In this document: positions 44,216-62,992 of the stretch, in pieces
Position numbering within the stretch: the first letter of the stretch is position 1
Layout: every line of letters starts with the position of its first letter
NCBI RefSeq assembly: GCF_900102875.1
Contig: NZ_FNGH01000012.1
Span: 1-64,000, forward strand
Direction of reading: 5' to 3'
DNA from: Franzmannia pantelleriensis
Lineage (GTDB): Bacteria; Pseudomonadota; Gammaproteobacteria; Pseudomonadales; Halomonadaceae
Length of the DNA: 64,000 nucleotides
Translations under genes and position numbers: made by a program
Notes under the pieces: generated by a model
The model's database searches: none
Told to the model about the DNA's origin: nothing
Seen by the model: the letters and a program-made list of their open reading frames with translations, nothing else

Positions 44216-44228
44216 TCACAGGCTCCGA

Positions 44229-45251
44229 TCAGCGCTGCGCCGGGCAGTTGTCACGCGCGTCCATGGCGGCCTGATAGACCTCCCGGGCGTTGTCGATGCC
44301 GCGCTCCTCGAGCTCGTCGAGATAGGTTTCGATGCCGGCCTTGAGCGGCTCGGCCCAGTCGTCGTGCTCCAGCGGGTTGTCGATCACGCGGATGGTATGA
44401 CCGGCCTCCTCGGCTTCGGCCTTGCCGGCTTCATCGAGGCCGTCGAACACGCCACCGGCGATCTCGCTCCAGGCCATGCCCATGTTGTCCTCGATCACCG
44501 CCTGCTGCGCTTCGCTCAGACCGTCGAAGCTGCGCTGGCTCATGGTGGCGACGAAGATCAGCGAGTAGAACGGTACCTGGGTGTGGTAGCTGGCCAACTC
44601 GTTGAGGCGGAACACCTTCATGCCCTCCCACGGGAAGCTCAGGCCATCCACTACGCCACGCTGCAGCGAGGTGTAGATATCCGGCGCCGGCATACCCACC
44701 GGCTGGGCGCCGAGGTTCTCGAGCATCTGCCCGGCTACCGCGGTGGGCCGACGGATGCGCAGGCCGGCCAGGTCATCCGGCGACTGGATATCGGTGTCGG
44801 TGGTGTGCAGGTAGCCCGGCCCGGTGGTGAACATGAACAGCACCTTGGTGTCGTCGTACTCGCTCTCCAAGTAGCCGTCGTCATACAAGCCCTGCAGGAT
44901 GCAGGCGCCCTGGCTGGCGGTATCCGAGACACCTGGCAGCTCGACGATCTGCGACAGCGGAAAGCGACCGGCAGTATAGCCCTGGGCGGTGATGGCGATG
45001 TCCGAGATGCCGTTGACCACGCCCTGATAGGCGGCATCAGCCTGGGTCAGGGTCTGGGAGGGATAGTTCTCGACGCTCAACTCGCCCCCGGACTGCTCCT
45101 CGATGGTATCGGCCCAGGCCTGGAAGATTTCCTGGTTGATGCCCGAGCCATCCGGCCAGAAATGCGACATGCGCAGCGTGGTGGCGTGAGCGGTGGTGGC
45201 GAGGCCGGCGACGGAGAGCGCCAGCAGGCAAGGGAGAAGCTTGCGGTTCAT
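44229..45251 (-). CDS. TRAP transporter periplasmic binding protein (DctP), system 3
   Basis: The 340-aa protein has a signal peptide (LLPCLLALSVAGLATTAHA) followed by TLRMSHFWPDGSGINQEIFQ, SVENYPSQTLTQADAAYQGV, GISDIAITAQGYTAGRFPLS and VDGLSFPWEGMKVFRLNEL. It is closely similar throughout to the proteins at 48446 and 60280. Encoded with its own DctQ and DctM and with the aromatic aldehyde dehydrogenase, it probably binds an aromatic acid or aldehyde. It has a cysteine pair (GACILQGL and C-terminal DNCPAQR) shared by all three. Confidence 0.94.
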   Translation of the reverse strand: MNRKLLPCLLALSVAGLATTAHATTLRMSHFWPDGSGINQEIFQAWADTIEEQSGGELSVENYPSQTLTQADAAYQGVVNGISDIAITAQGYTAGRFPLSQIVELPGVSDTASQGACILQGLYDDGYLESEYDDTKVLFMFTTGPGYLHTTDTDIQSPDDLAGLRIRRPTAVAGQMLENLGAQPVGMPAPDIYTSLQRGVVDGLSFPWEGMKVFRLNELASYHTQVPFYSLIFVATMSQRSFDGLSEAQQAVIEDNMGMAWSEIAGGVFDGLDEAGKAEAEEAGHTIRVIDNPLEHDDWAEPLKAGIETYLDELEERGIDNAREVYQAAMDARDNCPAQR

Positions 45252-45296
45252 CAGGAACCTCCGGGGTTATCGTTATCGATGATACAGTTCGCGATA

Positions 45297-45310
45297 CGAA
45301 CTAACGTTCG
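45297..45310. promoter_or_regulatory. Inverted repeat CGAAC-TAAC-GTTCG before TRAP system 3
   Basis: Perfect 5-base arms with a 4-base spacer, inside a wider imperfect palindrome that starts near CAGTTCGCGATAC and ends at CGCAATACTG. It lies 46 bases upstream of dctP and is unlike the VanR or MarR-type sites, so another regulator is likely. The remaining 45311-45505 shows no gene. Confidence 0.5.
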
Positions 45311-45505
45311 CAATACTGAGTAAAAGCTAACCCACCCGATGGATTTTCGATAACCCACTTTGGTCTTAATTGAATGGCTGAATGGCCCTTAGCGCCCGAA
45401 TTTGGCGCATTACATGGCGCTGGCCGCACGTCGACACAGGGCAAAAGCGCAGACCCTTCTTGGACATTTGGCATATCGGCAATACGACATCGGGCCGCGG
45501 TGATC

Positions 45506-46210
45506 TCAGCCGCCGTCTCGGGCCACGTCCGCTTCTGGATCCAAATCGAACAGCGCGCCGTAGCGCAGGCCGATATAGGCGTGCTCGCGCATCAGCATCT
45601 CGGCGCGCGCCCCCTCCCCGCGCTGCAGCGCCTGAAAGACCAGCTGATGCTGCTGATGGGCCAGGTAGAGCTTCTGGTACTCGCGGTTTAGCGCGGCGCT
45701 GTCGATGACGATGGAGTCCGCAGAGGCGAACGGCAGGTGGTTGTTGCGCTGGATCGCATCGCCGATCACCCGGCTACCGGTGGCCTCGACGATGGCGCGA
45801 TGGAAGGTTTCGTTGAGCGTGCTCCAGCGCGCGATATCGGCCTCCTCAAGATACCCCTTGCCCAGCAGGTCAGCCCCGCGGGCGATACAGCCTTCGAGCT
45901 GCTCACGCACCACAGGCGGCAAGCCGCGTTCGGCGAGGCGCCGCGCCGCCAGCCCCTCCAGCGCACCGCGCACCTCCACCGCGCACAACACGTCCTCCTG
46001 GGAGAACTCGCGCACCACGAAGCCGCGCTTGTTGGCCCGCTGCAGCAGCCCCTCCTGCTCTAGGGTGCGGAAGGCTAGGCGCACCGGCGTACGCGACACC
46101 CCCAGTTGCTCGGCCACCCGCACCTCGCCGATACGTTCACCGGGCTGGTAGCCGCCTTCGCTGATCAGCTTGCGCAGCCGTGTCACCACGCTCTTGTCGT
46201 CACTACTCAC
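45506..46210 (-). CDS. vanR: GntR family (FCD domain) regulator VanR
   Basis: The 234-aa protein has an N-terminal GntR winged helix (GGYQPGERIGEVRVAEQLGV, SRTPVRLAFRTLEQEGLLQR) and a C-terminal all-helical FCD ligand domain (ALEGLAARRLAERG, LNETFHRAIVEATGSRVIGD, HLPFASADS). VanR proteins repress vanAB until vanillate binds. It is divergent from vanA, and the gap carries two sites matching the VanR operator core TTGGATCCAA, which strongly supports the name. Confidence 0.92.
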   Translation of the reverse strand: MSSDDKSVVTRLRKLISEGGYQPGERIGEVRVAEQLGVSRTPVRLAFRTLEQEGLLQRANKRGFVVREFSQEDVLCAVEVRGALEGLAARRLAERGLPPVVREQLEGCIARGADLLGKGYLEEADIARWSTLNETFHRAIVEATGSRVIGDAIQRNNHLPFASADSIVIDSAALNREYQKLYLAHQQHQLVFQALQRGEGARAEMLMREHAYIGLRYGALFDLDPEADVARDGG

Positions 46211-46255
46211 CTGTTTTCCTTAGTGTTGTGTAAGGGGACCTTCAGATCGGCAGAC

Positions 46256-46263
46256 TGGATCCA
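46256..46263. promoter_or_regulatory. VanR operator, site 1 (core TGGATCCA)
   Basis: CTGGATCCAAC contains the palindromic core of the known Caulobacter VanR operator ATTGGATCCAAT, with the left end changed. It lies 46 bases upstream of the vanR start. Site 2 is 52 bases away centre to centre, about five helical turns, so two dimers could act on the same face. Confidence 0.72.
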
Positions 46264-46306
46264 ACTAAAGCATATATTGACCACGGCAAGCCACATAGCC
46301 TGTACT

Positions 46307-46316
46307 TTGGATCCAA
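46307..46316. promoter_or_regulatory. VanR operator, site 2 (TTGGATCCAA)
   Basis: A perfect 10-base palindrome, in context TTTGGATCCAAT, almost identical to the ATTGGATCCAAT operator studied in Caulobacter vanAB. It lies 66 bases upstream of vanA. Confidence 0.82.
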
Positions 46317-46381
46317 TAATAGCTAACCCATCAAATGGTTTAGCCATATAACAGCTTAACCGTGAACGAGGAGATAGCGTA

Positions 46382-47434
46382 ATGTTCCCCAAGAATACCT
46401 GGTACGTGGCCTGCACCCCTGACGAGATCGACGAGAAGCCCCTCGGCCGCACCATCTGCAACGAAACGATCGTGTTCTTTCGCGGCGAAGGCGGCAAGGT
46501 CGCTGCAGTGGAGGACTTCTGCCCCCACCGCGGCGCCCCCCTCTCGCTGGGCTTCGTCCGAGACGGTCAGCTGGTGTGTGGCTACCACGGCCTGGAGATG
46601 GGCGGCGACGGCAAGTGCTCCAGCATGCCTGGGCAGCGGGTGCGCGGCTTTCCCTCGCTGCGCGCCTACCCGGTCGAGGAGCGCCACGGTTTCATCTGGG
46701 TCTGGCCCGGCGACGCCGAGCAGGCCGACCCCGCCGAGATCCCCGAGCTGCACTGGGCCCACGACCCCGAGTGGGCCTATGGCGGTGGGCTCTACCACGT
46801 CAACTGCGGCTACCGGCTGATGATCGACAACCTCATGGACCTGACCCATGAGACCTACGTCCACGCCTCCAGCATCGGCCAGCCGGAGATCGAGGAAGCC
46901 GCCCCCGACACCCAGGTCAACGGCAACGAGGTGACCACCAGCCGGCATATGGAGAACATCCCCGCGCCGCCCTTCTGGCAGGCCGCCCTGCGCGGCAACG
47001 ACCTGGCCGATGACGTTCCCGTGGACCGCTGGCAGATCTGTCGCTTCACGCCGCCCAGCCACGTGATGATCGAGGTCGGCGTGGCCCACGCCGGCAAGGG
47101 CGGCTACGACGCCCCGGATGCCTACAAGGCGGCCAGCATCGTGGTCGACTTCATCACCCCCGAGACCGAGACCTCGATCTGGTACTTCTGGGGCATGGCG
47201 CGCCACTTCAAGCCCCAGGACCAGGCTCTGACCGACAAGATCCGCGAGGGCCAGGGCAAGATCTTCGCCGAGGACCTGGAGATGCTCGAAGCGCAGCAGC
47301 GCAACCTGCTCGCCTACCCCGAACGCCAGCTGCTCAAGCTCAATATCGACGGCGGCGGTGTGCAGGCGCGGCGCATCATCGAGCGGCTGATCGCCGAGGA
47401 GCAAGACGCCACGGCGGTGGAGAAGGCGTCATGA
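46382..47434 (+). CDS. vanA: Vanillate O-demethylase oxygenase subunit
   Basis: The 350-aa protein starts FPKNTWYVACTPDEIDEKPL and has the Rieske cluster in DFCPHRGAPLSLGFV and LVCGYHGLEM, then the iron-binding DNLMDLTHETYVHASSIG. It removes the methyl group of vanillate, giving protocatechuate and formaldehyde. It heads vanA-vanB-dctP, behind two VanR sites, and overlaps vanB by 4 bases. The formaldehyde is a likely substrate for the frmA/gfa pair at the window start. Confidence 0.97.
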   Translation: MFPKNTWYVACTPDEIDEKPLGRTICNETIVFFRGEGGKVAAVEDFCPHRGAPLSLGFVRDGQLVCGYHGLEMGGDGKCSSMPGQRVRGFPSLRAYPVEERHGFIWVWPGDAEQADPAEIPELHWAHDPEWAYGGGLYHVNCGYRLMIDNLMDLTHETYVHASSIGQPEIEEAAPDTQVNGNEVTTSRHMENIPAPPFWQAALRGNDLADDVPVDRWQICRFTPPSHVMIEVGVAHAGKGGYDAPDAYKAASIVVDFITPETETSIWYFWGMARHFKPQDQALTDKIREGQGKIFAEDLEMLEAQQRNLLAYPERQLLKLNIDGGGVQARRIIERLIAEEQDATAVEKAS

Positions 47435-48411
47435 GTGCACTGCCGCTGTCGATGTTCGTCGAGGTCACCGCAAAGCACCAGACCGCCGAGGACATCGTGG
47501 TCATCGAGCTGGCCGACCCCCACGGTCGGCCGCTGCCCGCCTTCAGCGCCGGGGCACATATCGACGTGCGTGTCCCGGCACCGGGCCAGGACGGGCTGGT
47601 CCGCCAGTACTCGCTGTGCAATCACCCCGAGGAGCGCGACCGCTATCGACTCGGCATCCTGCGTGAGCCCAACTCGCGGGGCGGCTCGACGGCCATGCAC
47701 GACACGGTCGAGATCGGCGACCTGATCGCCATCAGTGCGCCCAAGAACCACTTCCCCCTCGAGCCCGCCGGCCGCAGCCTGCTGTTCGCCGGCGGCATCG
47801 GTATTACCCCGCTGCTGTGCATGGCCGAGCGCCTGGCGCATACCCAAGCCGACTTCGAACTGCACTACTGCACCCGCTCGGCGGCGCGCACCGCTTTTCT
47901 CGACGAGATCCGCGCGGCCGACTTCGCCGACCGCGTGCAGCTGCACTTCGACGACGGCGACGCCGCCCAGAAGCTCGACCTCGCCAGCCTGGCGGCGACG
48001 CCGGATCCCGACACCCAGGTCTACGTCTGCGGCCCGGCGGGCTTCATCGATCACGTGCTGAGCACCTTTCGCGACCACGGCTGGCCGGAGGCGCAGCTGC
48101 ACACCGAGTACTTCAGCGGCGCCGAGACCGCCCGCGACGATGACGGCAGCTTCGAGGTCAAGATCGCCAGCAGCGGCGCCAGCTTCCAGATACCCGCCGA
48201 CAAGACCGTGCACCAGGTGCTCAGCGAGAACGGCATCGAGATCATGGTCTCCTGCGAACAGGGCGTCTGCGGCACCTGCCTGACACGGGTGCTCGAGGGC
48301 GAGCCCGACCACCGCGACCTCTACCTCGATGACCACGAGCACGCCGCCAACGACCAATTCACCCCCTGCTGCTCAAGAGCCAAGAGCAAGACCCTGGTGC
48401 TCGACCTCTGA
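47431..48411 (+). CDS. vanB: Vanillate O-demethylase reductase subunit
   Basis: The 326-aa protein is a class IA phthalate-type reductase: flavin region RQYSLCNHPEERDRYRLGIL, NAD region LFAGGIGITPLLCMAERLAH and CGPAGFIDHVL, and C-terminal [2Fe-2S] ferredoxin CEQGVCGTCLTRVLEGEPDH with the last Cys in FTPCCSRAK. It delivers electrons from NADH to VanA. Its ATG overlaps the vanA stop (ATGA), so translation is coupled. Confidence 0.97.
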   Translation: MSALPLSMFVEVTAKHQTAEDIVVIELADPHGRPLPAFSAGAHIDVRVPAPGQDGLVRQYSLCNHPEERDRYRLGILREPNSRGGSTAMHDTVEIGDLIAISAPKNHFPLEPAGRSLLFAGGIGITPLLCMAERLAHTQADFELHYCTRSAARTAFLDEIRAADFADRVQLHFDDGDAAQKLDLASLAATPDPDTQVYVCGPAGFIDHVLSTFRDHGWPEAQLHTEYFSGAETARDDDGSFEVKIASSGASFQIPADKTVHQVLSENGIEIMVSCEQGVCGTCLTRVLEGEPDHRDLYLDDHEHAANDQFTPCCSRAKSKTLVLDL

Positions 48412-48445
48412 CCCGACACCCATAACCATAATCAGAGAGGTTCCC

Positions 48446-49471
48446 ATGACCCTGACTGCACGCCCCACCCGACTCGCCGCCGGCATGGCACTGGCCGCTG
48501 GCCTGGCCGCCCTGCCGGCCCTGGCAGAAGCCACCACCCTGCGCATCGCCCACGTCTGGCCCGGCGGTTCGATGGTCGACCGTGAGCTGTTCGGCGCCTG
48601 GGCCGAGAGCGTCGAGGAGGCCTCCGAGGGCCGCCTCAGCGTCGAGATCTACCCCGGCCAGACCCTCGCCAGCGCCGACAACACCTACCAGGGCGCCGTC
48701 AGCGGCATCGCCGATATCGGCGCCACCGCCCAGGGCTACAGCGCCGGCCGCTTCCCGCTGACCCAGGTCATCGAGCTGCCCGGGGTATCGCTGAGCAGCC
48801 GCCAGGGCTCATGCATCCTGCAGTCGCTCTACGACGACGGCCACCTGGATGACGAATACGACGACTCCCACGTCCTGTTCATGTTCACCACCGGCCCCGG
48901 CTACCTGCATACCAGCGACCGCCTGATCGAGACGCCGAGCGACCTCGAAGGGCTGCGCATGCGGCGCCCCACCGCCGTGGTCGGCGACATGTTCTCGCGG
49001 CTCGGCGCCCAGGCCATCGGCATGCCGGCGCCGGACGTCTTCACCTCGATGCAGCGCGGCGCCATCGACGGGCTCAGCTTCAACTGGGAGGGCATGAAGA
49101 CCTTCCGCCTCAACGAGCAGGCCCACTATCACACCGAAGTGCCGCTCTACGACCTGGCGCTCACCGCCACCATGAACCGCGACACCTATGAGAGCCTGCC
49201 CGACGACCTGCGCCAGGTCATCGACGACCACAGCGGCCTCGAGTGGTCGCTGCGCGCCGCCGCCGTCTACGACGAGCTGATTCGCCAGGGCCGCGAGGAA
49301 GCACAAGAGGCCGGCCACGAGTTCCTGGTCATCGATGACGCCATGAACGACGATGCCTGGGGTCCGGTACTGCAAGAGACCATCGACCGCTACCTGGCTG
49401 ATACCGGTGGTGAAGCCGAGACCCTCTACGCAGAGAGCCTGCGTCTCCAACAGGAGAGCTGTGACGTGTGA
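48446..49471 (+). CDS. Orphan TRAP binding protein (DctP) in the vanAB operon
   Basis: The 341-aa protein has a signal peptide (LAAGMALAAGLAALPALAEA) and TLRIAHVWPGGSMVDRELFG, SVEIYPGQTLASADNTYQGA, GIADIGATAQGYSAGRFPLT and IDGLSFNWEGMKTFRLNEQ. It is a close paralogue of the proteins at 44229 and 60280. The start at 48446 has AGAGAGG upstream. It lies 34 bases after vanB and is followed by a strong terminator, with no DctQ or DctM gene; it probably presents vanillate to the membrane module of system 3. Confidence 0.92.
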   Translation: MTLTARPTRLAAGMALAAGLAALPALAEATTLRIAHVWPGGSMVDRELFGAWAESVEEASEGRLSVEIYPGQTLASADNTYQGAVSGIADIGATAQGYSAGRFPLTQVIELPGVSLSSRQGSCILQSLYDDGHLDDEYDDSHVLFMFTTGPGYLHTSDRLIETPSDLEGLRMRRPTAVVGDMFSRLGAQAIGMPAPDVFTSMQRGAIDGLSFNWEGMKTFRLNEQAHYHTEVPLYDLALTATMNRDTYESLPDDLRQVIDDHSGLEWSLRAAAVYDELIRQGREEAQEAGHEFLVIDDAMNDDAWGPVLQETIDRYLADTGGEAETLYAESLRLQQESCDV

Positions 49472-49496
49472 TGCCAAGGCGTCGGCGTCCTCCGTT

Positions 49497-49520
49497 GCCC
49501 CGCTATGGCGGGGCTTTTTT
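49497..49520 (+). terminator. Rho-independent terminator of the vanAB-dctP operon
   Basis: GCCCCGC-TATG-GCGGGGC followed by six T residues, 25 bases past the dctP stop. Confidence 0.93.
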
Positions 49521-49623
49521 GTGGCGGAAAATCGACGCGCAGCTATTCTTCAGATTGAAAGTGGGCCTAATCAAAGAGCCGTTAAGACTAGCGACTCCAT
49601 TTTTCACCTGATGCCTATTTTAA

Positions 49624-49758
49624 TTAGCCAGGAGGGTAGCTTGTTACCGTAATGATTATAGATGCATGGAAAAACAAGCTGATGACCAAAGCAAACGTAA
49701 CCATGTAAGGATGAAGTCCCTCATCACGCCCAAATACAACAACACCTACTAAAGCCAT
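49624..49758 (-). CDS. Small hydrophobic open frame after the immunity-like gene
   Basis: Minus-strand frame of 44 codons from ATG 49758: MALVGVVVFGRDEGLHPYMV, TFALVISLFFHASIIITV, TSYPPG. A TTG at 49773 in the same frame overlaps the stop of the neighbouring 89-aa gene, so translation could be coupled. It has one or two membrane segments. It may be a second small membrane protein of the immunity module or a frameshifted tail of the first. The rest of 49521-49769 is AT-rich and shows no other gene. Confidence 0.35.
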   Translation of the reverse strand: MALVGVVVFGRDEGLHPYMVTFALVISLFFHASIIITVTSYPPG

Positions 49759-49769
49759 GCTTGTCCACG

Positions 49770-50039
49770 TCAATCCCTGTAGTTCTTTATTTTACTAACA
49801 GACTTCCAAACGTACACAACACATGTACCCACCATAAAATAAATCAATATGATGGAAAGAGCTGTTTTTTCAAAGAAAAGTTCTTTGTCCACTATCTCAC
49901 CAGCTGCAAAGATGAAGAAAATAATTACAGCGTAGGACAAAAGAGTTGCGCTTCCCCCGATTCTTTTGACGTTATCCTTTAGCAACCTAGACACAAAAAC
50001 AACCACAGAGAGCATAAACAATAACATAATATCCAACAT
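49770..50039 (-). CDS. Small membrane protein, candidate immunity protein to the Rhs toxin
   Basis: The 89-aa protein has three hydrophobic segments: MLDIMLLFMLSVVVFVSRLL, LLSYAVIIFFIFAAGEIV and ALSIILIYFMVGTCVVYVW. It begins 2 bases after the stop of the VgrG-Rhs gene on the same strand, the usual place of an immunity gene, and is AT-rich like the toxin tail and unlike the surrounding GC-rich DNA. I find no named family. A role in protecting the membrane against the toxin tail is inferred from place and composition. Confidence 0.6.
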   Translation of the reverse strand: MLDIMLLFMLSVVVFVSRLLKDNVKRIGGSATLLSYAVIIFFIFAAGEIVDKELFFEKTALSIILIYFMVGTCVVYVWKSVSKIKNYRD

Positions 50040-50041
50040 TG

Positions 50042-53000
50042 CTAGCGCCCTCTACTTCCGTTTGCATAATTACCAACACCATTATAGACACCTATGCCTG
50101 AAGCACCCGCCTCAACAGTTAAACCCGTTGCAGTTGCACTTTGATAGGCCGGTATAAAGTCGTCAGGCAAGCTACGAAATAGCTGAAAGGTATCGGGGTT
50201 CCGCACCGGTCTCAACAGCCCGCCTACAGAAGTGCCTAGATTTGCACCATCTACTGTCAGATTACCCAACTGTTCCCCTAGCTGATCAACAGCTGCCTCA
50301 CGAGCGAAGCCCCTTCCACTCTCAGAAAATCCTTCTTGTATATTGCTGGCCCCTAAGCCTGCAATAGGAGCACCAGCTACGCAGCCAGCCACCGTTTTAC
50401 AGAGGGCACCACCTAATAGCACTTGGCCACCCCCACCTATGACAGTAGCAGTGCGTGTGAGCACTTCCATACCTTCATCACGAATAAAACGAGGAATCAT
50501 TCGTGAATGGAATTTGATCGTCTCCCAAGCACTCAACCCCAGCGGATCCACCATCCCGGTCGGGTTGCTGACATACCCATACAGGTTGGTGCCGCCGTTC
50601 AGGCCAATCGGGTCCTGGCTGATGTAGCGCCCCTGCTGTGGATCGTAGTAGCGGTGGCGGTTGTAGTAGAGGCCCGATTCTTCATCGTACCACTGGCCCT
50701 GGAAGCGGATCGGCTGGGGCGTGTTGCCGCGCTCATTCCTGACAGCGGCCCAGTCATCAGGCTGGGCCTGCCATAGGGTCTCGCCCTTTGGCGTAACGAG
50801 CTGCATGGGGGTGCCCAGGGCATCGGTGACATAAGCACTGATCTGCTTGGGCGCGTCGTGGCCGGCTTGGTCGATTCTGAGCATGGGCACGAAGCTACCC
50901 GGTTCGTAGACCACGGTGGTTTGGTGGCGCTCTTTCGCTTCGTGCACGAGCCGGTCGCCGTCCCAGCCGTAGTGGGTGGTGGCGGTGGTGCCGTTGGCGT
51001 GTTGGACGGTCTTGCTGATGCGCCGCCCCAGGGCGTCGTAGCGGTAGTGGGCTTCCTGGGTGGTGCCCTGGGGGCTGGTGCGAGCCAAGCGTACCAGGCG
51101 GTTGGCACCGTCGTAGCCGAGGCTGAGGCGCTCGCCGTTGCGCTGTTCACGCTCGATCAGGTTACCGGCGCCATCATAGCGGTAGCGGGTGCCATCGAGC
51201 TGGGTCTGACGGTTGTCGGGCTGGGCGCTGGCTTGGCCTTCGAGGCGGTTGCCGGCGGCGTCCACCGGGTAGCGCTGGGCGCGGTCGCCGTGCTGGCTGG
51301 CGATCAACCGCCCGGCGGGGTCGTAGGTGTAGGCGATGACCGGGCTGCTACCGCCCTGACCGGCGCTGCGGAAGCTGAGCCGGCCAAGGGTATCGTAGCG
51401 GTAGTGCTGCTCATCCTTGGCGCTGCCGGGGCCGCGCAGGCTGAGATGATCGAGCTGGCCGAGCGCGGTATAGCCGCGCTCGAGGATCAGCGGCTGGGGC
51501 TGGTCGGCGGCGCTCAGGCGGCGCTGGGTCTCGCGGTGCAGGGCGTCGGGCTCCAGGGCGATCTCGAACCTGAGGCCTGGGGCGCTCATGCCGTGCAGGT
51601 GGCCGCTGCCGTAGGTGTGCCAATTCAGCGCGGGTAGGTCACCGAACTGGCTGGCCTGGGGCGCGCCGTTGGCGGTCAGGCGTTGCTCGTGCTGCCAGCG
51701 CCAGCCCATGGTTTCGCTGGTGGTATCGCCCTGGGCGAGATGCTGCTGGCGTTCGCCCACTGGGCGCCCCGCTGCGTCATAGGCCAGGCGAACCTCTCCA
51801 TCGGCATTGCTGGCGCCGCTGAGCTGGCCGTCGGCGCGCCACTGGTAGCGCTCGGTGCTGGCCGGGGCCGAATCGGTTGCGGGCAGATGGCGGGCGATCA
51901 GCCGACCGTTGGCATCGAACTCATAATGAACGGCGAGCGGCTGCCCGTCGGGACCGAGCCGGTGGGCTTCGGTGCGCGTACTCAGTTGACCTGCGGCGTC
52001 GTAGGCGTAGCGCTGCTCACGGCCGTCCGGACCGGTTTCGCTGACGAGGCGATCCATGTCGTCATAGGTAAAGCGGTAGACGGCGCCGTTGGCCAGGGTC
52101 AGTTTGCTGAGTCGGCCGGCGGCGTCGTAGGCATAGTGCTCCTGGCCGGTATCAGCGTCGATGCGACGCTCGGGGCGACCTTGGGCATCGAAGAAGAACT
52201 GTTGGCGATACCCTAGTGGCCCCTCGACCTCCACCAGCCGCCCCTGCGGGTCATGGTGGTGCTGCCAGCGGCTGCCGTCGGGGAGCTGGGTGGCGATGCG
52301 CCGGCCCATCTCGTCATGGCTGGTGCGGGTGGTCTCGCCCAGGGCGTTGGTCACGGCGAGCAGATGACCGCGACTGTCGTAGTCGTAGCGAGTGCACTGC
52401 TCGGAGCAGTCGGTCTCGACGGCGAGCTGGCCCAGGGCGTTCCACTCGAGCTGGCGAGTGTTGCCGCCGGCATCGGTGACGGCGGTGGGGCGATCAGGCA
52501 GGCTGTCGGTGCCGTAGCGGAAGATGGTGGTGCCTTCGGGGCCGACGACCTGGGTGAGGTTGCCACGGGCATCGCGCTCGAGCTGCCAGTGGAGGTTTTC
52601 CGGGCCGGCCAGCGCGGTGGGCTCGCCCAGAGCATCGCGGGTGATGGTCCAACGGCTGCCGTCGGGGCCTCTCTGGGCGATCACCTGCCCGCTTTCATCG
52701 CGTTCGAGCGCGGTCTCGCGACCCAGCGGGTCGACGCTGGCGATGCGCTGTCCGGCGTGATCGTAGCGGTATTGGATAACCGAGCCGTCGGCACGGGTGT
52801 GGGCCGTCCAGCGCTGGCCGGGGCCAGTGCCGCTGAAGTGATAGCGCTCCTCGCGACCGAGGCTGTCGGTCACCAGGGTGTGATCCGGGTGGTAGGCGTA
52901 GGTGCGTGCCAGGCCGCCGCTCTCCTCCTGGGCGATGACCCGGCCTTCCGGCGTATACCGATCCCAGGTGTAGCGAGCTTCCATGCCCCCGGGCACACGG

Positions 53001-55864
53001 TGGGCGGTGAGCATATGCGCTTGCCACTCGAACTCGCGGACCACCTCGCCATGGCGATGGCGCACGGCGATCAGATCGCCTTCAGGGCTGTAGGCGTAGC
53101 GCACCAGCCAGTCGTCCTGGCGGCTGCCATCGGCCTCACCTACCAGGCGTACGCCGCTGAGGCGCTGGCCGCTGTCCTGCGCGCTGGCGGGCAGCAACGC
53201 CTCGTACTCGAAAGCATAGTGGCGCCCGGCGCTGTCCTCGACCTGGACGAGCAGCTCGGCTTCCCAGCGGTAGGTGGTGGCGTAGCCGTTGCGGTCCAGT
53301 TCCTGGGCGAGGCGCCAGGTGGACGATGCCGCCTGCGTCGGTGCGAAGACGTAGTAGAGGCCACCGGCATCGCTCAGCACGATGGTCTGCGGGTCGTGGC
53401 GCAGGGTGTCGGGCAGTGCCGCCCAGCGAACGCTTTCACCATCTTTGCCCGCTTCCTGCGCGGTCGGCTCGCCACCGCGCCGCAGCCACAGCTGCTCGGT
53501 GGGCGAATAGCGCGACTGCCCCGGCGCCAGGGCGCCGAAGGTGATGTCGCGGCCTTGGGCGTCGTGGATCACGCAGGCATCGTCCCGCAGGGTGAGCGAG
53601 AGGCTGTCGCCGGGCACCGACCACCCCTGCCCCAGCACACCGATACGGGCGTTGGCGGAGAGGTAGCCGCGCGAGAATACGAAGGGTCGCGGTGCCGGCA
53701 GGGCGAAGTCCGTCTCGGCGGGCAGCAGCTTGGCGCCCAGCAGCGGGTTGACCGGGCTGCCCACGGCGGGCTCGCAGGCACTGCAGCGGTTGGCCAGGCC
53801 ATCGAGCATGGCGGGATCGTTGAGATCCAGCAGGTTGCCGAGCTGGGAAAGCAAGCCTGAGCCGGTCGACTTGAGCGTGACGTACTCGCTCGCTTCCGGC
53901 GTGGCGGCGCCCGGCAGTCGTGCGGCGGCTACCGCCTGCCCGCTGCCCACCCCAGGGCTGCCGCCGGAGTTGATCTTGACCTGGGCGCCGATGATGGTGA
54001 CACCGCTAGGGTCGAGCTTGATAACGCTGCCGCCGGCGTTGAGGGTGATCTCGGCGCCGGCGTCGATCACGGTCTTGCTGCCGGCCTTGTAGTGGATCTC
54101 CTGCCCCGCCTCGATGAGCTGGGCGCGGCCCGTCTTTTCGTGGCGAGTGGCGTCGACGCTCAGGTGGTCGTCGCCGTCGACCTGGACGTGGCGGCTGCCG
54201 TGCACGGTGAGGTGGTCGTCGTTGTCGATCTCGCTGATGCGGTCGTGGCGGACCGTGAGATGGCTGTCGTTGCCGATCTCTTCAGTGCGATCGTGGTGGG
54301 TGAGCAGTTCCAGGTCCTTCTGGGCGTGCAGCCAGATCTGCTCCTGGTCGGCCTGGTCTTCGAAGCGCAGCTCGTTGAAGCCGTCGCCCTGGTGGCTCTG
54401 GGTGCGGATCACGGTGCGCGTCTTGTGCTCGGGCAGCGCGTAGGGCGGGGTGTTGACCGCGTGGTAGGTGCGCCCGGTGATCAGCGGCTGGTCCGGATCG
54501 CCCTCCAGGTAGCTGACGATCACCTCGTGGCCGATGCGCGGGATGGCGATGCTGCCGTAGCCGCCACCGGCCCAGTCCTGACTCACTCTCAGCCAGGCGC
54601 TCGCCGTTTCATTAGGCTCGGCGTAGCGGTCCCAGGGGAACTGTACCTTGACCCGGCCGTGTTCGTCGCAGTGGATCTCTTCGCCCTCGGGGCCGACCAC
54701 GAAGGCGACCTGGGGGCCGTCGACCCGGGGCCGGGGGTTGGGCATGGGCCGCCAGGCCTGGTCGGCGGGCATCAGCAGCAGGTCATTGTGGTAGCGGGTC
54801 ATGCCGACACTATCCGACTGGGTAACGCCGTCCTCCTCCAGGGCCTGGGGCTGCTCGCCGTGATGCACCACGCCGATCACCTGCCAGTCGCGGTTGAGTG
54901 CGTCGAGATCGTGGTCGCTGAGGGTGAAGCGTAACCCCGGGGCGAGCTCGGGCAGGTCGCTCTCGGCCTCGGCGGTGCTGGCGTCCTGGCGCAGCGCCTC
55001 GAGGCGTATCTGGGTAAAGGGCTCGCCGGAGGCGTCGGCCTTGTAGCGCCCAGGGTAGTCGTAGTGCTCGTAGTCGTCTCGCTGGGCGTGTTCCTTGAGG
55101 CCACCGGCCGCCTGCTCGTGAAGCTGAGCGTAGCTCGGGTTCTTGAAGGAGTAGTCCTTGAGGGTGGCGCTGGCCGGGGCGATGCGGGCAACCTGCTTGA
55201 GCTTGCGCACATGGCGCAGCTGCGGCGTGCCCCCAGCGCGGCTATGGTAGCGGCGCTCGCCCAAATGGGGCAGCACCTGGGGCGCGTCGGCGAACACCAG
55301 ACGGTGAGCGGCACTCGGCGCCTCGTCATCGCTATCGTCGCCTGCCGCAGCAACCTCGTGATAATAGAACAGCCCCTCTTCGGCCGCCAGGCGCTGGACG
55401 AAGGCGAGATCGGTCTCGCGGTATTGGGTCAGGTACTCGCGCACCTCGGGTTCCCGGGTGGCGGCGAAGGCGATATCGGCGATACCGTGCTCGTCGCACA
55501 GGGTATTGAGCACGGTGAGCGGCGAGACGTCCTGGAAGATGCGCGAATTGTGGCGCAGCCCGAGGCGCCATAGCGCGGGGCGGATCTCGACGTGGTAGAA
55601 GGTGCGGCGGTGGCCGCGATCGCCGCGGCCGAACTCGCTGACCACGCCATTGATCAGGCGCAGCGCCTCGCCGTCCTGCCAGATCGTCAGGGTCGCCTCA
55701 CGGTCGAGGATATCGCTGGCAGAGAGGCCGCTGTCGCGGCTGGCAAAGCGTACGCTGAGCGCGAAGGGCGCGGAGAGCCGCTCACGATGGGTGAAGTCGA
55801 TCACCGCCACGTCCTCGACGCCAGGCAGGCTCAAGGTGAAGTGTAATCCGCTCGCGCTGGCCAT
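50042..55864 (-). CDS. VgrG-Rhs fusion with polymorphic C-terminal toxin tail
   Basis: The 1940-aa protein joins a T6SS spike to an Rhs cage. Residues about 1-390 are the VgrG base ([20 protein letters not shown]), then the gp5 OB-fold ([15 protein letters not shown], near 408) and a beta-helix with [20 protein letters not shown] (about 538). The Rhs part starts near 695 ([20 protein letters not shown]), carries many YD repeats (YDAAGRL type), and ends near 1777 at [20 protein letters not shown] and VDPLGL. The 163-residue tail ([29 protein letters not shown]) resembles DUF4225 Rhs tails and has hydrophobic stretches; this is a tentative match. No PAAR domain is seen. The start at 55864 has GGAGG; 55888 is an alternative. 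Likely secreted by a type VI system encoded elsewhere. Confidence 0.92.
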   Translation of the reverse strand: [1940 protein letters not shown]

Positions 55865-56005
55865 CACGCCTCCCTGCGTCTGGAACATGCCACTAGGATG
55901 GATTTATTAGAGAAGCAGAAATTTTGGTGCGGCAAGAATACCAATCCCAGCGGCGGGTATCTGTGGGCGTTCGCTTAGCGCGGTGTAGGAAATAACTTAC
56001 AAAGC

Positions 56006-56040
56006 AAAAAACCCCCACACGGCTAGACGCGATGTGGGGG
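56006..56040 (-). terminator. Rho-independent terminator after pcaG
   Basis: On the minus strand CCCCCACA and TGTGGGGG pair (plus positions 56012-56040), then TTTTTTG follows. It lies 54 bases past the pcaG stop. Confidence 0.9.
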
Positions 56041-56094
56041 AGAAGAGACGTCAGGTTATCGGCGCCGAGGCGCGCCGATCAGATATCGAAGTGA

Positions 56095-56727
56095 CTAGAA
56101 GTCGAAGAACACCGTCTCGCCTTCGCCCTGCAGGCGTATATCGAGGCGGTAGCGCACCTTGCCGTCGACCTCCTCGCGCTTGGCGATCAGCGTCTGGCGA
56201 CGCGCCGGCGACTCGATGGCGTTGAGCACCGGGCAGGCGGCGTTGGCGTCCGCTTCGTCCTCAAAGTAGAGGCGCGTCTGCAGCTGGATGTTCACGCCGC
56301 GGGCGAAGATCGCCAGGTTGATGTGCGGTGCCATGGTCTTGCCGTCGCCGCGGGTGACCGCGCCGGGCTTGATGGTGGTCAGGGTCCACTCGCTGTCGCC
56401 CACCGCGGTGGTGGCGGTGCGGCCGAAACTGTTAAACGGCTTCTGTAGATCGAAGGCCGGCTGATACTGGCCCTGGCCATCGGCCTGCCAGGCCTCGATC
56501 AACGCATCGCGCACCAGGTCGCCGTTGCCGTCGATCACCCGGCCGACCACCTCGATATGCTCGCCATCGGCTTCGGGCTTGGCCAGCTGGTTCCAGATCT
56601 CTTCATCGCGCTCGGGCAGGCCGGCGACATCCAGTGCCAGGCCGATGTGCACGTAGGGGCCGGCGGTCTGGGAGGCGGTCTCGCGCAGCATCAGGTCGTG
56701 GGTACCGACGCTATTGGACTGTTGCAT
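56095..56727 (-). CDS. pcaG: Protocatechuate 3,4-dioxygenase alpha subunit
   Basis: The 210-aa protein matches PcaG: ASQTAGPYVHIGLALDVAGL, VIDGNGDLVRDALIEAWQAD, WTLTTIKPGA, MAPHINLAIFARGVNIQLQT and a C-terminal DIRLQGEGETVFFDF. It forms the catalytically inert but structural half of the iron enzyme. The start MQQSNSVGTHDLM at 56727 has GGGAGAGA upstream. It follows pcaH by 14 bases, as is usual, and ends in a clear terminator. Confidence 0.97.
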   Translation of the reverse strand: MQQSNSVGTHDLMLRETASQTAGPYVHIGLALDVAGLPERDEEIWNQLAKPEADGEHIEVVGRVIDGNGDLVRDALIEAWQADGQGQYQPAFDLQKPFNSFGRTATTAVGDSEWTLTTIKPGAVTRGDGKTMAPHINLAIFARGVNIQLQTRLYFEDEADANAACPVLNAIESPARRQTLIAKREEVDGKVRYRLDIRLQGEGETVFFDF

Positions 56728-56741
56728 GGCGGTCTCTCCCG

Positions 56742-57467
56742 TCACTGGTTTTCGAAGTAGGTCTGCAGCTCGCCGCGCACCACCAGGTCGAAGCGGTAGG
56801 CCAGGCAGTCCATGGGGCGGCTGCGCGCCATATCGAGGCGGCCGATCATGGTCTCGACGGCGTCCGGGTCGTTGATCGTCTGCACGATGGGGCAGATCGG
56901 GATCAGCGGGTCGCCCTCGAAGTACATCTGGGTGATCAGGCGGGTCGAGATCGACGGGCCCATCACCGAGACGTGGATATGTGCCGGGCGCCAGGTGTTG
57001 ATGCCGTTGGGCCAGGGATAGGGGCCGGGCTTGATGGTGCGGAAGCGGTACCAGCCGTCGTCGTCGGTGAGGCAGCGGCCGACGCCGCCGAAACTGGGGT
57101 CGAGGGGCGCCAGGTAGGCGTCCTTCTTGTGTCGATAGCGGCCGCCGGCGTTGGCCTGCCACATCTCCACCAGGGTGTGCGGCACCGGCTTGCCGAACTG
57201 GTCGACCACGCGCCCGAACATGATGATGCGCTCGCCGATGGGCAGGACGTCCTGGCCCTCGCGGTAGTTGAGCAGCAGGTCGTTGTCGTGGGGGCCCATG
57301 CGCAGGGCGCGGAAGTCCGGGCCGCCGAGCTCGGAGACGCTGGGCCGCTGCAGGCTGACCAGCGCCTGGTTCGGCGAGCGCGCCACGGTGGTCTTGTAGC
57401 CCGGCGCATAGGCCGGCGGATGCCAGTTACGGTCGCGCTCGACGTAGCGCTTGTTGTCGTCTTGCAT
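56742..57467 (-). CDS. pcaH: Protocatechuate 3,4-dioxygenase beta subunit
   Basis: The 241-aa catalytic subunit has the iron(III) ligands: Tyr in [20 protein letters not shown], Tyr in [19 protein letters not shown] and the His pair in [12 protein letters not shown]. It opens protocatechuate to beta-carboxymuconate. It precedes pcaG. A PcaQ-type operator (57572-57587) lies about 105 bases upstream, overlapping the end of the neighbouring toxin gene. Confidence 0.97.
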
Positions 57468-57571
57468 GGCGAAAAGCCCTCTGCTGGCGTGGATCGCGGG
57501 CCATGCCGCGGGTTGGCCGGTAGTGTGGCGCGTCGCCGCAGGGCTGCCAATTGACGACTCGGGACACCCAC

Positions 57572-57587
57572 ATAACCTATGGGTTAT
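57572..57587 (-). promoter_or_regulatory. PcaQ operator ATAACC-N4-GGTTAT
   Basis: ATAACC (57572-57577), TATG, GGTTAT (57582-57587) matches the PcaQ site ATAACC-N4-GGTTA known from rhizobia. It lies 105 bases upstream of pcaH, where a LysR activator would bind. It overlaps the last three codons and stop (His-Asn-Pro-stop) of the PIN gene. The pattern is seen; binding by the PcaQ-like protein at 59288 is inferred. Confidence 0.72.
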
Positions 57588-58071
57588 GGGTATCGATGCG
57601 ATCTAATGAACTGAGGGCGAGCTGCCAAGGAAGGCGTCTGCCATTTTCCCGCATCCGTGCATAGGCAGTCTTTGCCTCCTCCCTGGTGATGATCTGATGG
57701 CAAACGAGCTGATTAACGATCCATAGGGTCCCCATCACTTCGACACCTTCCCTATCGGCAGCAGCCCGAAGTCTCTGGTCCCCCGTCAGAAGTGGGCACT
57801 GCTCTTGCCTGGCCAGCGCCAGAGCGAAACAGTCGTTTCTGCTCACTCCGGAACAGCGCTGTATGAGTGCCACCGCATAATGGAGCGTCGCCGAGGTAAG
57901 CTCCCCCTGCGACAGCCCCATATCCAGAAGGTGGCTATGCTGGGCTTCCAATTCTTCTGCAAACAGAATATCGGGAACGGCGAACTCATAGGGAAGCCGA
58001 AATAGCTCGTCCATGAGCTTGCCTTCTTCAAGGTCAATCAGAATATTGGTATCGCTAATGAGCAACTGCAT
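57577..58071 (-). CDS. PIN-domain protein, putative toxin of an XRE-ImmA pair
   Basis: The 164-aa protein has the PIN pattern: [20 protein letters not shown] (Asp at residue 7), [24 protein letters not shown] and [17 protein letters not shown], giving the acidic nuclease residues. A C-terminal helix region ([20 protein letters not shown]) follows. It is probably an RNA-cleaving toxin. It overlaps the XRE-ImmA gene by 17 bases, so they form one unit, and its last codons lie in the PcaQ operator. Confidence 0.85.
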
Positions 58072-59119
58072 CCAGCTGCTCCAGCTTTCGTTCCTGGTGG
58101 AACTGCATTAGGGGAATCCCCAGCAGCTCTGCGGCCTTGGATTCGCTAACAATCCCCTCACCGAGTGCTCGATACACCAGTTGCTGGAATGTCAGGGTGA
58201 CTTCCGCAGGGTAAGCGTGCCCTGGCTCCACTTTGTGCCAGCGGTTTTTCGAGAACTTGATCATCATCCCACGATGCTCAGCCGACGTGATGATACCGAG
58301 ATCCTTGGCACGATAGAGACAAGCCTTCATGCTCAGCCCGTACTCCATCTTCATCAGGTAGAGCTCTTTCGGCTCAAGATGCTGGCGTGATGGGCCGAGC
58401 TGTTGACGCATCGGTCCGGCCGGCAACAAAAAAGCGCCAGCAAAGCGGTTACAGGCTTGCTCTTCATCCAATGTGGCAGCCAGTCGTCCCTGCAACAATA
58501 GGTGCCCAAGCTCATGAGCCAGTGTGAATCGCTGGCGGTCCCCAGGCCAATTGGACGATACGACGATGACGGGCAATCCTGCTATCTGTGCTTGCAGGCC
58601 ATCAAACTTGGACTGCTCATCGACGTCCGTCATGATCACGAGGATACCGCGGGCTTCGAGCTCATCGACCAAGTCTGGGATAGGATTCTGTCCCAGCTGC
58701 CAGCTCGACCGTAGGCCATCGGCAACAGCGTCCACCTCGTCCAGTGTCTCGACCCGCTCTGGCAAGTCGTCTGGTTCCTTGAAGTCGGCGAGCGGGAAGT
58801 TCGGCCAAAGGTTGGTTAGTTCGTGCCAACGCTCTGCCTGATCGAGCACATCTGCATGGATACGCTTGAGGATGCCTGCCGGCAACGTCGATCGCTTGCG
58901 ATACTCCACCTCACCGAGTTCGACCTGTACAGGGCGGAAGAAGTATTCGCTACGTACGCCCAGTGACTTGGACAGCTTGATCAGTACGCCTGAGCTGGGC
59001 ATGCACTGGTCATGCTCGTACTTCTTGATCATGTTGGCACTCACGCCAACCTGCTGCCCCAAGGCCTGCATGGATAAGCCAGCGGCCGCGCGTGCACGCT
59101 TGATTCGCTCTCCAATCAT
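58055..59119 (-). CDS. XRE regulator with ImmA/IrrE zinc peptidase domain
   Basis: The 354-aa protein has an N-terminal Cro/C1 helix-turn-helix (IKRARAAAGLSMQALGQQVG, VSANMIKKYEHDQC) and a central ImmA/IrrE peptidase with the HEXXH zinc motif LAHELGHLLLQGRLAATLDE, then NRFAGAFLLPA. Such proteins control mobile elements or act as antitoxins for PIN and other toxins. Directly upstream of and overlapping the PIN gene, it is the likely antitoxin or regulator. An inverted repeat lies 15 bases before its start. Confidence 0.88.
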   Translation of the reverse strand: MIGERIKRARAAAGLSMQALGQQVGVSANMIKKYEHDQCMPSSGVLIKLSKSLGVRSEYFFRPVQVELGEVEYRKRSTLPAGILKRIHADVLDQAERWHELTNLWPNFPLADFKEPDDLPERVETLDEVDAVADGLRSSWQLGQNPIPDLVDELEARGILVIMTDVDEQSKFDGLQAQIAGLPVIVVSSNWPGDRQRFTLAHELGHLLLQGRLAATLDEEQACNRFAGAFLLPAGPMRQQLGPSRQHLEPKELYLMKMEYGLSMKACLYRAKDLGIITSAEHRGMMIKFSKNRWHKVEPGHAYPAEVTLTFQQLVYRALGEGIVSESKAAELLGIPLMQFHQERKLEQLDAVAH

Positions 59120-59133
59120 GCTGGCCTCTCAAG

Positions 59134-59152
59134 GTTTATGAATCATATAAAC
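59134..59152. promoter_or_regulatory. Inverted repeat before the XRE-ImmA gene
   Basis: GTTTAT-GAATCAT-ATAAAC has perfect 6-base arms and lies 15-33 bases upstream of the XRE gene, in an AT-rich stretch. It is probably the autoregulatory site. Confidence 0.55.
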
Positions 59153-59287
59153 TCATGGTAGACGTAAACCACACAGCCTAGCAAACCACCACTGAAAGAG
59201 CACATAAAATGTTCTAATTAGAAAGCAACCAACATCATCGCCAGCGTTGCCTATCCCGTGGGTATCGAGTGAGTCATCGCACAAGCG

Positions 59288-60205
59288 CTAATACGCAGCC
59301 GCCGCCTCGCGCAGCGCCTCGCAGAACGCCTCCAGCCCCAGCGAGGGCTGCAGGCTGGCGTTACGGCAGAAGCCCACCGAGCCGCCCTGCTCCTCCAGCG
59401 GCAAAGCCAGCTCGGCCAGTAGGCCGGCGGCGAGGTCGTCGGCCACCGCCTCGCGCGGGGCGACCCACAGCGCGTCGCTGTCGAGGGTGTAGCGGCGGCT
59501 GACCGGCAGCGACAGGGTCTCCAGGCGCCGGCCGGGCAGGCCCAGGCCATGGCGCACGCAGAAGCTGTCGACCCGCTGGCGCAGGGTGGTCTGCGGCGGC
59601 GGCAGCACCCACGCCAGCTCGCTCAAGCGCTCGGCGGGCAAGGGGGCGATGCCGGCCAGCGGATGGCCGCCACGCACCACCAGCAGCAGCGGCTCGTAGT
59701 AGAGGTGTTCGAAGGTCAGGTCGCGGATCTCGCGGGCCTCGGTCATGCGCCCCACCACCAGGTCGAGCTCGCCGGCGCGCAGCTGCGAGAGCAGGTAGGC
59801 GCTGGCCCCGGTGACCACCTTGACGCCGCTGTCAGGAGCGTCGAGGCTCACCTGCCAGCGCAGGATCGCCCGCGGCAGCAGCTGGCTCTCCACCGTGGAG
59901 AGCGCCCCGACCCGCAGCCACTCGCCGCTGCCCTGGGCGGCACTCACCGCGCCGACGCCCTCCTCCAGCGCGCGCAGCGCCGGCCCGGCGTGGCGCAGCA
60001 GGGTGAGGCCGGCCTGGGTCAGCGCCACGCCCTGGGGCGTACGCTCGAACAGCGGCGCCGCGACGCTCTCCTCGAGTTCGCGAATGGCCTTGGAGATGCC
60101 CGGCTGGGTGATCGCCAGACTGTCGGCGGCACGCGCGAAGCTGCGCCGCTTGGCGACCTCGAGGAAGGCCTGCAAGTGACGCAGCTTGATACGCGGATTG
60201 AGCAT
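59288..60205 (-). CDS. pcaQ: LysR family regulator PcaQ type
   Basis: The 305-aa protein starts LNPRIKLRHLQAFLEVAKRR and has the helix-turn-helix DSLAITQPGISKAIRELEES, which is typical of PcaQ and related GbpR types. The effector domain includes LDLVVGRMTEAREIRDLTFE. PcaQ activates pcaHG and related genes in response to beta-carboxymuconate. A matching operator sits before pcaH, but the toxin-antitoxin pair now lies between regulator and target. The gene stands in the same direction as pcaHG rather than divergent. Confidence 0.88.
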   Translation of the reverse strand: MLNPRIKLRHLQAFLEVAKRRSFARAADSLAITQPGISKAIRELEESVAAPLFERTPQGVALTQAGLTLLRHAGPALRALEEGVGAVSAAQGSGEWLRVGALSTVESQLLPRAILRWQVSLDAPDSGVKVVTGASAYLLSQLRAGELDLVVGRMTEAREIRDLTFEHLYYEPLLLVVRGGHPLAGIAPLPAERLSELAWVLPPPQTTLRQRVDSFCVRHGLGLPGRRLETLSLPVSRRYTLDSDALWVAPREAVADDLAAGLLAELALPLEEQGGSVGFCRNASLQPSLGLEAFCEALREAAAAY

Positions 60206-60279
60206 GGCAAACGACCGGCGATGGCATAAAAGCGTTACCTTCGCCGATCAGGCGCCAAAACGGAACCGCTACGCGCCGT

Positions 60280-61302
60280 TCAGGACCGACACGCCTCGCC
60301 CAGCTCCAGGGCACGAGCGTGGACCTCGCGGGCGTTGTCGATGCCGCGCGCCTCGAGGCGGGTCAAGTAACCCTCGGTGCCTTCCTGCAGCGGCTCGGCC
60401 CACTCCGGGTCGTTGAGCGGATCCTCCACGCTGTGGATGGTGCCGCCCTGGGCCACGGCTTCCTCGCGCCCTTCTCGGTCGAGGCGGTCATAGACCTCGC
60501 CGGCCCGCGCCGCCCACTCCATCCCGGTGTGGGCGTCGATGGCGTCCTGTACCTCGGGGGCCAACCGCTCATAGCTGTCGAGGTTCATCACCGCCATGGC
60601 CACCCCGGTGTAGTAGGGCACCTCGAGGTGGTACTCGGCCAGCTCGTTGATGCCGAAGGTCTTCATCGCCTGCCACGGGAAGCTCAGGCCATCCATCACG
60701 CCGCGCTGCATCGAGGTGTAGATATCCGGCGCCGGCATGCCCATGGGCTGGGCGCCGAGCCGCTCGAGCATCTCGCCGGCGACGTCGCTGGGGCGGCGAA
60801 TGCGCAGGCCGCGCAGGTCGTCGGGGGACTGTAGTTCGTCGCCGCGGGTATGCAGGTAGGCCGGCCCAGTGGCGAACATGTAGAGCACCTTGACGTCGTC
60901 GTACTCGTCGCTGATCAGGCCTTCGTCATACAACGACTGCAGCACGCAGGAACCCTGGGAGGAACTAGACGAGACGCCCGGCAGTTGGACGATCTCCGAG
61001 AGCGGGAAGCGCCCTGACGTATAGCCCTGCATGGTGATGGCGATATCCGAGATGCCGTTGACCGCGCCCTGGTAGGCCTGGTCCGAGGGCCCCAGGGTCT
61101 GGGAGGGGTAGTTCTCGACCGTGACGGCGCCGTTGGTGACCTCCTCGAGGCTCGCCGCCCAGGCCTCGAAGATCTCCTGATTGACCTCCGAGCCGGAGGG
61201 CCAGAAGTGCGCCATGCGCAGGGTATCGGCGTGGGCGGTGGTGGCTGCGGCAGCGGCGGCCACGCAAGTGGCCAGCAGGCAGCGAGAGATGGCGTGTTTC
61301 AT
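60280..61302 (-). CDS. Orphan TRAP binding protein (DctP) next to mdlC
   Basis: The 340-aa protein has a signal peptide (CLLATCVAAAAAATTAHA) and TLRMAHFWPSGSEVNQEIFE, TVENYPSQTLGPSDQAYQGA, GISDIAITMQGYTSGRFPLS and MDGLSFPWQAMKTFGINEL. It is very similar to the proteins at 44229 and 48446. It lies 70 bases after mdlC in the same direction, with no DctQ or DctM gene nearby, so it probably binds benzoylformate (or mandelate) and uses the membrane subunits of system 3. Confidence 0.92.
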   Translation of the reverse strand: MKHAISRCLLATCVAAAAAATTAHADTLRMAHFWPSGSEVNQEIFEAWAASLEEVTNGAVTVENYPSQTLGPSDQAYQGAVNGISDIAITMQGYTSGRFPLSEIVQLPGVSSSSSQGSCVLQSLYDEGLISDEYDDVKVLYMFATGPAYLHTRGDELQSPDDLRGLRIRRPSDVAGEMLERLGAQPMGMPAPDIYTSMQRGVMDGLSFPWQAMKTFGINELAEYHLEVPYYTGVAMAVMNLDSYERLAPEVQDAIDAHTGMEWAARAGEVYDRLDREGREEAVAQGGTIHSVEDPLNDPEWAEPLQEGTEGYLTRLEARGIDNAREVHARALELGEACRS

Positions 61303-61372
61303 GGTGATGACCTCTGTTGTGCTTATGGTGAGTGTCGTGGTGCGAGTGGCGTGGTGCTGCCCCTGACCGGCG

Positions 61373-62992
<1,620 letters not shown>

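Follow-up and report, generated by a model that had tools for sequence, protein, structure and literature searches.

A VgrG-linked Rhs protein with a DUF4225 tail in Franzmannia pantelleriensis belongs to a family of fusions in Halomonadaceae

Domain architecture of the fusion protein

We analyzed a 64,000-nucleotide stretch of Franzmannia pantelleriensis DNA (the window) that encodes a protein in which the T6SS spike protein VgrG runs directly into an Rhs cage. This protein is very probably a polymorphic antibacterial effector of the VgrG-linked Rhs kind, accompanied by its immunity gene. Its reading frame is single and uninterrupted (50042–55888, minus strand, 1948 aa, no internal stops). 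The true start is probably ATG 55864 rather than the upstream ATG 55888, judging by a GGGAGG located 4 nt before the former; the latter lacks a clear ribosome-binding site. Residue numbers throughout count from ATG 55888.

Pfam and NCBIfam assignments in this one open frame bore out a preliminary description of the locus, which had proposed a VgrG fused directly to an Rhs shell with its own cargo (Table 1). The N-terminal part has the domains of a TssI spike, that is, a gp27-like hub (Phage_GPD, residues 35–346, E 6e-82), an OB fold (Phage_base_V, 408–475) and a gp5-like trimerization/beta-helix region (Gp5_trimer_C, 493–597), and the protein matches TIGR03361 (VgrG, TssI; E 3e-178). The remainder is composed like an encapsulated Rhs toxin, with a DUF6531 cage plug (residues 710–784, E 5e-18), a YD-repeat shell (14 RHS repeats), the Rhs-associated core (TIGR03696) with its DPxGL...DPxGL protease and a variable tail. 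In the C-terminal plug, the core motif reads DPIGL-x17-DPLGL with a predicted cut after L1785, and exactly the 163 aa given in the preliminary description follow DPLGL. Its shell start near residue 695 was correct in that VgrG runs into the shell but has to be moved, as the cage begins at about 710–712. AlphaFold2 gave a pLDDT of 31 for the tail alone and of 28.5 for the junction (residues 480–800, 4 sequences), both too low for interpretation.

Table 1 Features of the VgrG–Rhs module in the window
Feature	Position	Strand	Evidence
VgrG module, residues 1–655	53924..55888	-	Pfam/NCBIfam; GGGAGG before likely start 55864
VgrG submodules: gp27-like hub 35–346, OB fold 408–475, gp5-like trimerization/beta-helix 493–~655			
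Linker, residues 656–711	53756..53923	-	Junction alignment
N-terminal cage plug, DUF6531, residues 710–784	53537..53761	-	Pfam, alignment to Tse5
Rhs/YD-repeat shell, residues 785–1712	50753..53536	-	Pfam, NCBIfam, phmmer to 8cp6
C-terminal plug/predicted aspartyl autoprotease core, residues 1713–1785	50534..50752	-	TIGR03696; motif spacing
Toxin tail, residues 1786–1948 (163 aa), DUF4225 at 1803–1917	50042..50533	-	Pfam PF13988, homologous tails, GC
Candidate immunity gene, 89 aa	49770..50039	-	Three predicted TM helices, GC, likeness to Imm4225
Whole module (6.5 kb)	49532..56006	-	Flanks adjoin in relative G060 (L178)

The preliminary description had also noted the lack of PAAR and Eag elements, and we agree on both. 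Pfam returned no PAAR match within the protein at E up to 1, which led us to reject a hidden PAAR domain, and no Eag chaperone gene lies nearby, an 89-aa ORF being the only adjacent co-oriented small gene. With VgrG as its N-terminus and neither PAAR nor Eag gene, the protein is not a PAAR–Rhs effector; VgrG and Rhs cage within a single chain place it with the 8QJA type.

PDB entry 8QJA, ‘YD repeat-containing Rhs element Vgr protein’ (1879 aa), likewise combines a VgrG N-terminus (chain 27–523) and an Rhs cage (1012–1879) in one chain. It differs in a longer, dissimilar stretch between VgrG and cage and in the absence of a tail from the matched chain, and the Rhs part of our fusion is nearer to Tse5 than to 8QJA. 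We take 8QJA to be the VgrG-linked Rhs of Advenella mimigardefordensis from Kielkopf et al. 2024 (Structure), which reportedly describes a VgrG-linked Rhs. We found no reports on VgrG–Rhs fusions in the open literature that we searched. The preliminary description had called such fusions known but seldom studied; ‘seldom studied’ is fair, and a known fusion already exists as 8QJA. The VgrG–Rhs architecture, though uncommon, is thus already known and has a solved structure, because 8QJA is such a chain, an independent fusion occurs in another family (see below) and VgrG and RHS proteins are listed among DUF4225 carriers (PMC9765294). Added here to the preliminary description are a Tse5-type cage, a DUF4225 tail and a downstream immunity gene.

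A Tse5-type cage and its N-terminal junction

The closest solved cage identified by phmmer is the Tse5 shell 8CP6 (E 9e-261), whose first residue, P48, aligns with P712 of the fusion. By sequence, we assign the cage to the Tse5 type, a class without TM helices, which would account for the absence of an Eag gene. Like Tse5 of Pseudomonas aeruginosa, the fusion has an N-terminus that is not of the TM/Eag type and combines a presumably envelope-active tail with a small immunity gene. In Tse5, however, a 47-residue N-terminal fragment docks on a separate VgrG, whereas here VgrG itself is the N-terminus, and the tail families are unlike. PAAR–Rhs effectors with EagR (RhsA, Rhs1/Tre23) share the two-plug cage and the DPxGL aspartyl protease but have prePAAR, TM helices, PAAR and EagR dependence, none of which is found in the fusion.

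The linker ends in a cage-entering segment, RCSACEPAVGS (residues 701–711). The cut in Tse5 falls at K47|P48, and part of its 47-residue N-terminal fragment is anchored in the cage (PMC10684867); from this report and our alignment, we infer that the segment corresponds to that fragment and its end to K47|P48. We regard it as an even question whether the covalent link matters for assembly only, with an early cut at S711|P712 parting VgrG from the cage and the fired complex being an ordinary non-covalent spike plus cage. Consistent with such a cut, all 25 fusions retain the segment CSxC....GSPVNP (once as CGxC), which also occurs at the start of a stand-alone Rhs, and the equivalent proline is the first residue of the Tse5 shell (PMC10684867). 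Against it, K47 of Tse5 is replaced by S in the fusion, and the residues that bear the mechanism of N-terminal cleavage are not conserved among Rhs proteins (PMC10684867). How the unfused arrangement looks is seen in relative G022, where the N-terminus of a stand-alone Rhs is 38 residues long and contains a CSSC...GNPVNP segment; its gene shares 4 nt with the end of an upstream frame that consists mostly of N and whose readable N-terminus is VgrG-like.

The DUF4225 tail and its candidate immunity protein

The tail matches Pfam DUF4225 (PF13988, residues 1803–1917, E 2e-6) with 27.7 bits, just above the curated cut-off of 25.9, and with 32.5 bits in a second profile search. Across 250 family genomes, DUF4225 exceeded the cut-off four times, always in the tail of a VgrG–Rhs fusion, with three sister fusions carrying homologues of our tail; 369 sampled genomes of the class contained no DUF4225 homologue besides this protein. 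Behind each of the four tails lies a small membrane ORF, and the four ORFs belong to one family. The 89-aa ORF in the window starts 2 nt past the toxin stop codon, has three predicted TM helices (residues 2–20, 32–50 and 59–77) and is 52%, 31% and 31% identical to its three sister ORFs. GC content is 69% in the shell, 50.6% in the tail and 35.9% in the immunity gene.

In Vibrio parahaemolyticus, DUF4225 acts as an antibacterial T6SS toxin: it lyses cells from the periplasm, and Imm4225, a protein of 89 aa with three TM helices whose gene lies directly downstream, neutralizes it (PMC9765294). The same study lists the domain together with VgrG, PAAR, Hcp and RHS proteins. The F. pantelleriensis pair has the same toxin domain and, directly downstream of it, a small multi-TM protein of the same length and helix number, which makes the 89-aa ORF the candidate immunity partner of the tail, with a protective function presumed from homology. 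Our best guess for the target of the tail is the inner membrane, because the tail has a glycine-rich hydrophobic stretch (residues 1824–1842) and the immunity protein is predicted to be membrane-embedded. While the Vibrio toxin is a protein of its own whose gene follows hcp, the present one is caged behind VgrG–Rhs, adding a natural delivery vehicle for DUF4225.

Recurrence and polymorphic tails across Halomonadaceae

A 241-aa query spanning the junction gave 26 end-to-end matches in 22 of the 250 Halomonadaceae genomes, with 70–92% identity outside the F. pantelleriensis genome, while nearly all other matches end where VgrG ends. Because the same junction recurs in this way, the fusion is neither chance nor an assembly join. 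A frameshift or sequencing join between two genes, which the preliminary description had considered, was therefore rejected for this copy together with a pseudogene, its frame being open. As far as we found, a Halomonadaceae family with 18 tails and a series of fusion, free module and empty site at one locus is unreported. The hosts of these fusions are environmental and non-pathogenic.

In the 25 copies that are readable as far as the tail, pairwise identity averages 82% for the VgrG end, 69% for the linker, 88% for the plug, 75% for the shell and 83% for the core, as against 11% for the tail. The protease motif DPxGL-x17-DPxGL has identical spacing in every copy, and the tails sort into 18 types, some matching RNase A-like, TseH-like or Ntox16 toxins and most lacking a Pfam match. 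Several relatives carry displaced core-plus-tail cassettes downstream of the fusion, and one orphan tail (L134) is identical in sequence to the one that is active in another fusion (L144). At the sequence level, a conserved VgrG/cage part with divergent tails is the signature of a polymorphic toxin, here accompanied by exchange of the C-terminal toxin/immunity cassettes and by displaced orphans.

Fusion genes also decay: tssC is missing from two of the 22 genomes, and in at least five sister copies the VgrG part is interrupted or truncated with cage and tail still open (L127 in G049, L131 in G249, L136 in G203, L146 in G141 and L148 in G159). In the two near-complete genomes without tssC (G153 and G162), the fusion is the only VgrG and is probably a relic. 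That the F. pantelleriensis gene, too, is decaying or accidental rather than a working effector is nevertheless very improbable in our view: all 1948 aa of this copy are intact, every motif is kept, an immunity gene is adjacent and the genome has T6SS genes.

A restriction of such fusions to Halomonadaceae was rejected by an independent VgrG–Rhs fusion in another family of the class (G917; L211, G917:C2), a 2060-aa frame with DUF6531 at 760 and a VgrG only 29% identical. Of 30 DUF6531 loci fetched in a phylum-wide sample, three were VgrG–Rhs fusions, two of them from Halomonadaceae. Separately, a 1564-aa frame (L153/L175, G051:C24) joins VgrG to a different C-terminal effector region, representing another covalent VgrG–effector fusion within Halomonadaceae.

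T6SS genes and a proposed delivery mechanism

The F. pantelleriensis genome encodes TssC and, on contig C12, TssM/IcmF beside PAAR and VgrG, which disposes of the absence of any T6SS that the preliminary description had named as a possible objection. tssC, the T6SS sheath gene, is present in 20 of the 22 fusion genomes. The genome contains four PF05488 matches, a 95-aa PAAR adjoins the C12 vgrG, and a sister fusion in G139 (L143) has a PAAR–lysozyme gene just upstream. Given these free PAARs and the position of the sister fusion, PAAR probably still caps such spikes, supplied in trans, and the earlier notion of a ‘complete delivery tip’ without PAAR went too far. The same genome also has a PAAR-containing frame of ~1085 aa (L019 7503–10760, G000:C13) with a stretch of N, probably a second specialized effector.

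By homology, we propose that the VgrG part trimerizes and caps the Hcp tube, with PAAR probably provided in trans. The polypeptide would leave the beta-helix through a linker of ~45 residues and enter a closed Tse5-type cage that encloses the tail, with no PAAR docking of a separate Rhs; the PAAR/Eag loading route would thus be bypassed. Inside the cage, the C-terminal plug (DPxGL-x17-DPxGL) would free the tail by cutting, and a second cut at S711|P712 is possible. Upon secretion, the spike would take the cage into the target cell, where the DUF4225 tail would escape and attack the envelope, most likely the inner membrane, from its periplasmic face, while the 89-aa three-helix membrane protein would guard the producer and its kin.

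Insertion site, module exchange and number of cages per spike

The module is inserted between a TRAP-binding-protein gene and ring-cleavage dioxygenase genes. In relative G060 (L178), where the site is empty, window positions 47000–49531 and 56007–59500 match one continuous stretch, so 49532–56006 is a discrete insertion. Other modules occupy this site in two more relatives: in G012, a free vgrG together with two additional genes, and in G049, a free vgrG followed by genes for a DUF4123 adaptor and a VasX-like effector; identity to both vgrGs stops at VgrG codon ~652. Within the same genome, the fused vgrG shares 96.2% DNA identity over 2073 bp with a free vgrG on contig C24, which precedes DUF4123 and Tle1-like phospholipase genes. 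This match takes in 115 bp upstream, breaks again at codon ~652 and exceeds the 91–92.5% identity to the same-site vgrGs of relatives. In a VgrG tree, fused domains stand beside free ones in at least four places, and the fused VgrGs form no clade of their own that would point to a single ancestral fusion; the VgrG part has therefore been repeatedly exchanged while linker and cage stay joined.

In our reading, the effector half can be exchanged: recombination at the vgrG 3' end would replace ‘vgrG tail + adaptor + effector’ by ‘linker + cage + toxin + immunity’, and toxin/immunity cassettes would be swapped again at the DPxGL site. A wider proposal, which we consider rather doubtful, is that the vgrG 3' end (~codon 652) is a recombination joint swapping whole effector modules, covalent cage included, and that the resident free VgrG repeatedly overwrites the fused one, allowing mixed single-cage spikes to assemble.

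A VgrG–Rhs chain poses the question of whether three cages are fired at once or fused and free VgrG are mixed. PAAR is a monomer, and PAAR–Rhs effectors therefore load one cage per trimeric spike. For the fusion, a homotrimer of three fused chains, with three cages and three toxin copies per shot, is a serious possibility that we place a little under even. The VgrG part retains hub, OB and trimerization domains, and in G139 and G149 a fusion is found ~21 kb from tssC, which is where other genomes usually have the free VgrG of the cluster, and appears to be that VgrG. This reading conflicts with the one cage per spike of PAAR–Rhs proteins (PMC8636562, PMC8765631), three ~120-kDa cages at a single tip may be too wide to fit and a free VgrG partner exists in all 20 tssC-positive fusion genomes (at least one gene each, some only as contig fragments). 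A heterotrimer of one fused chain and two free VgrGs would carry one cage, the fused VgrG being kept near-identical to the resident free VgrG for this purpose; we hold this to be plausible at somewhat less than an even chance. Both the closer identity to the C24 vgrG up to codon ~652 than to the same-site genes and the scatter of fused VgrGs in the tree agree with it, but long repeats undergo gene conversion even without selection for co-assembly. The Halomonadaceae series (25 fusions with 18 toxins and a site that is empty or holds a free VgrG or a fusion) allows both the number of cages and the way in which modules are exchanged to be tested directly.

Around the module, translations judged by eye suggest an aromatic-compound catabolism region (window 43691–49471 and 56095–62953) with TRAP transporter parts, a Rieske oxygenase and reductase, protocatechuate-type dioxygenase subunits, a thiamine-diphosphate decarboxylase and LysR regulators. 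At 57577–59119 (minus strand), a PIN-domain gene overlaps a gene with HTH and IrrE-type peptidase (M78) domains; the pair is conserved in G012 and G060 and looks like a toxin–antitoxin or stress-response pair.
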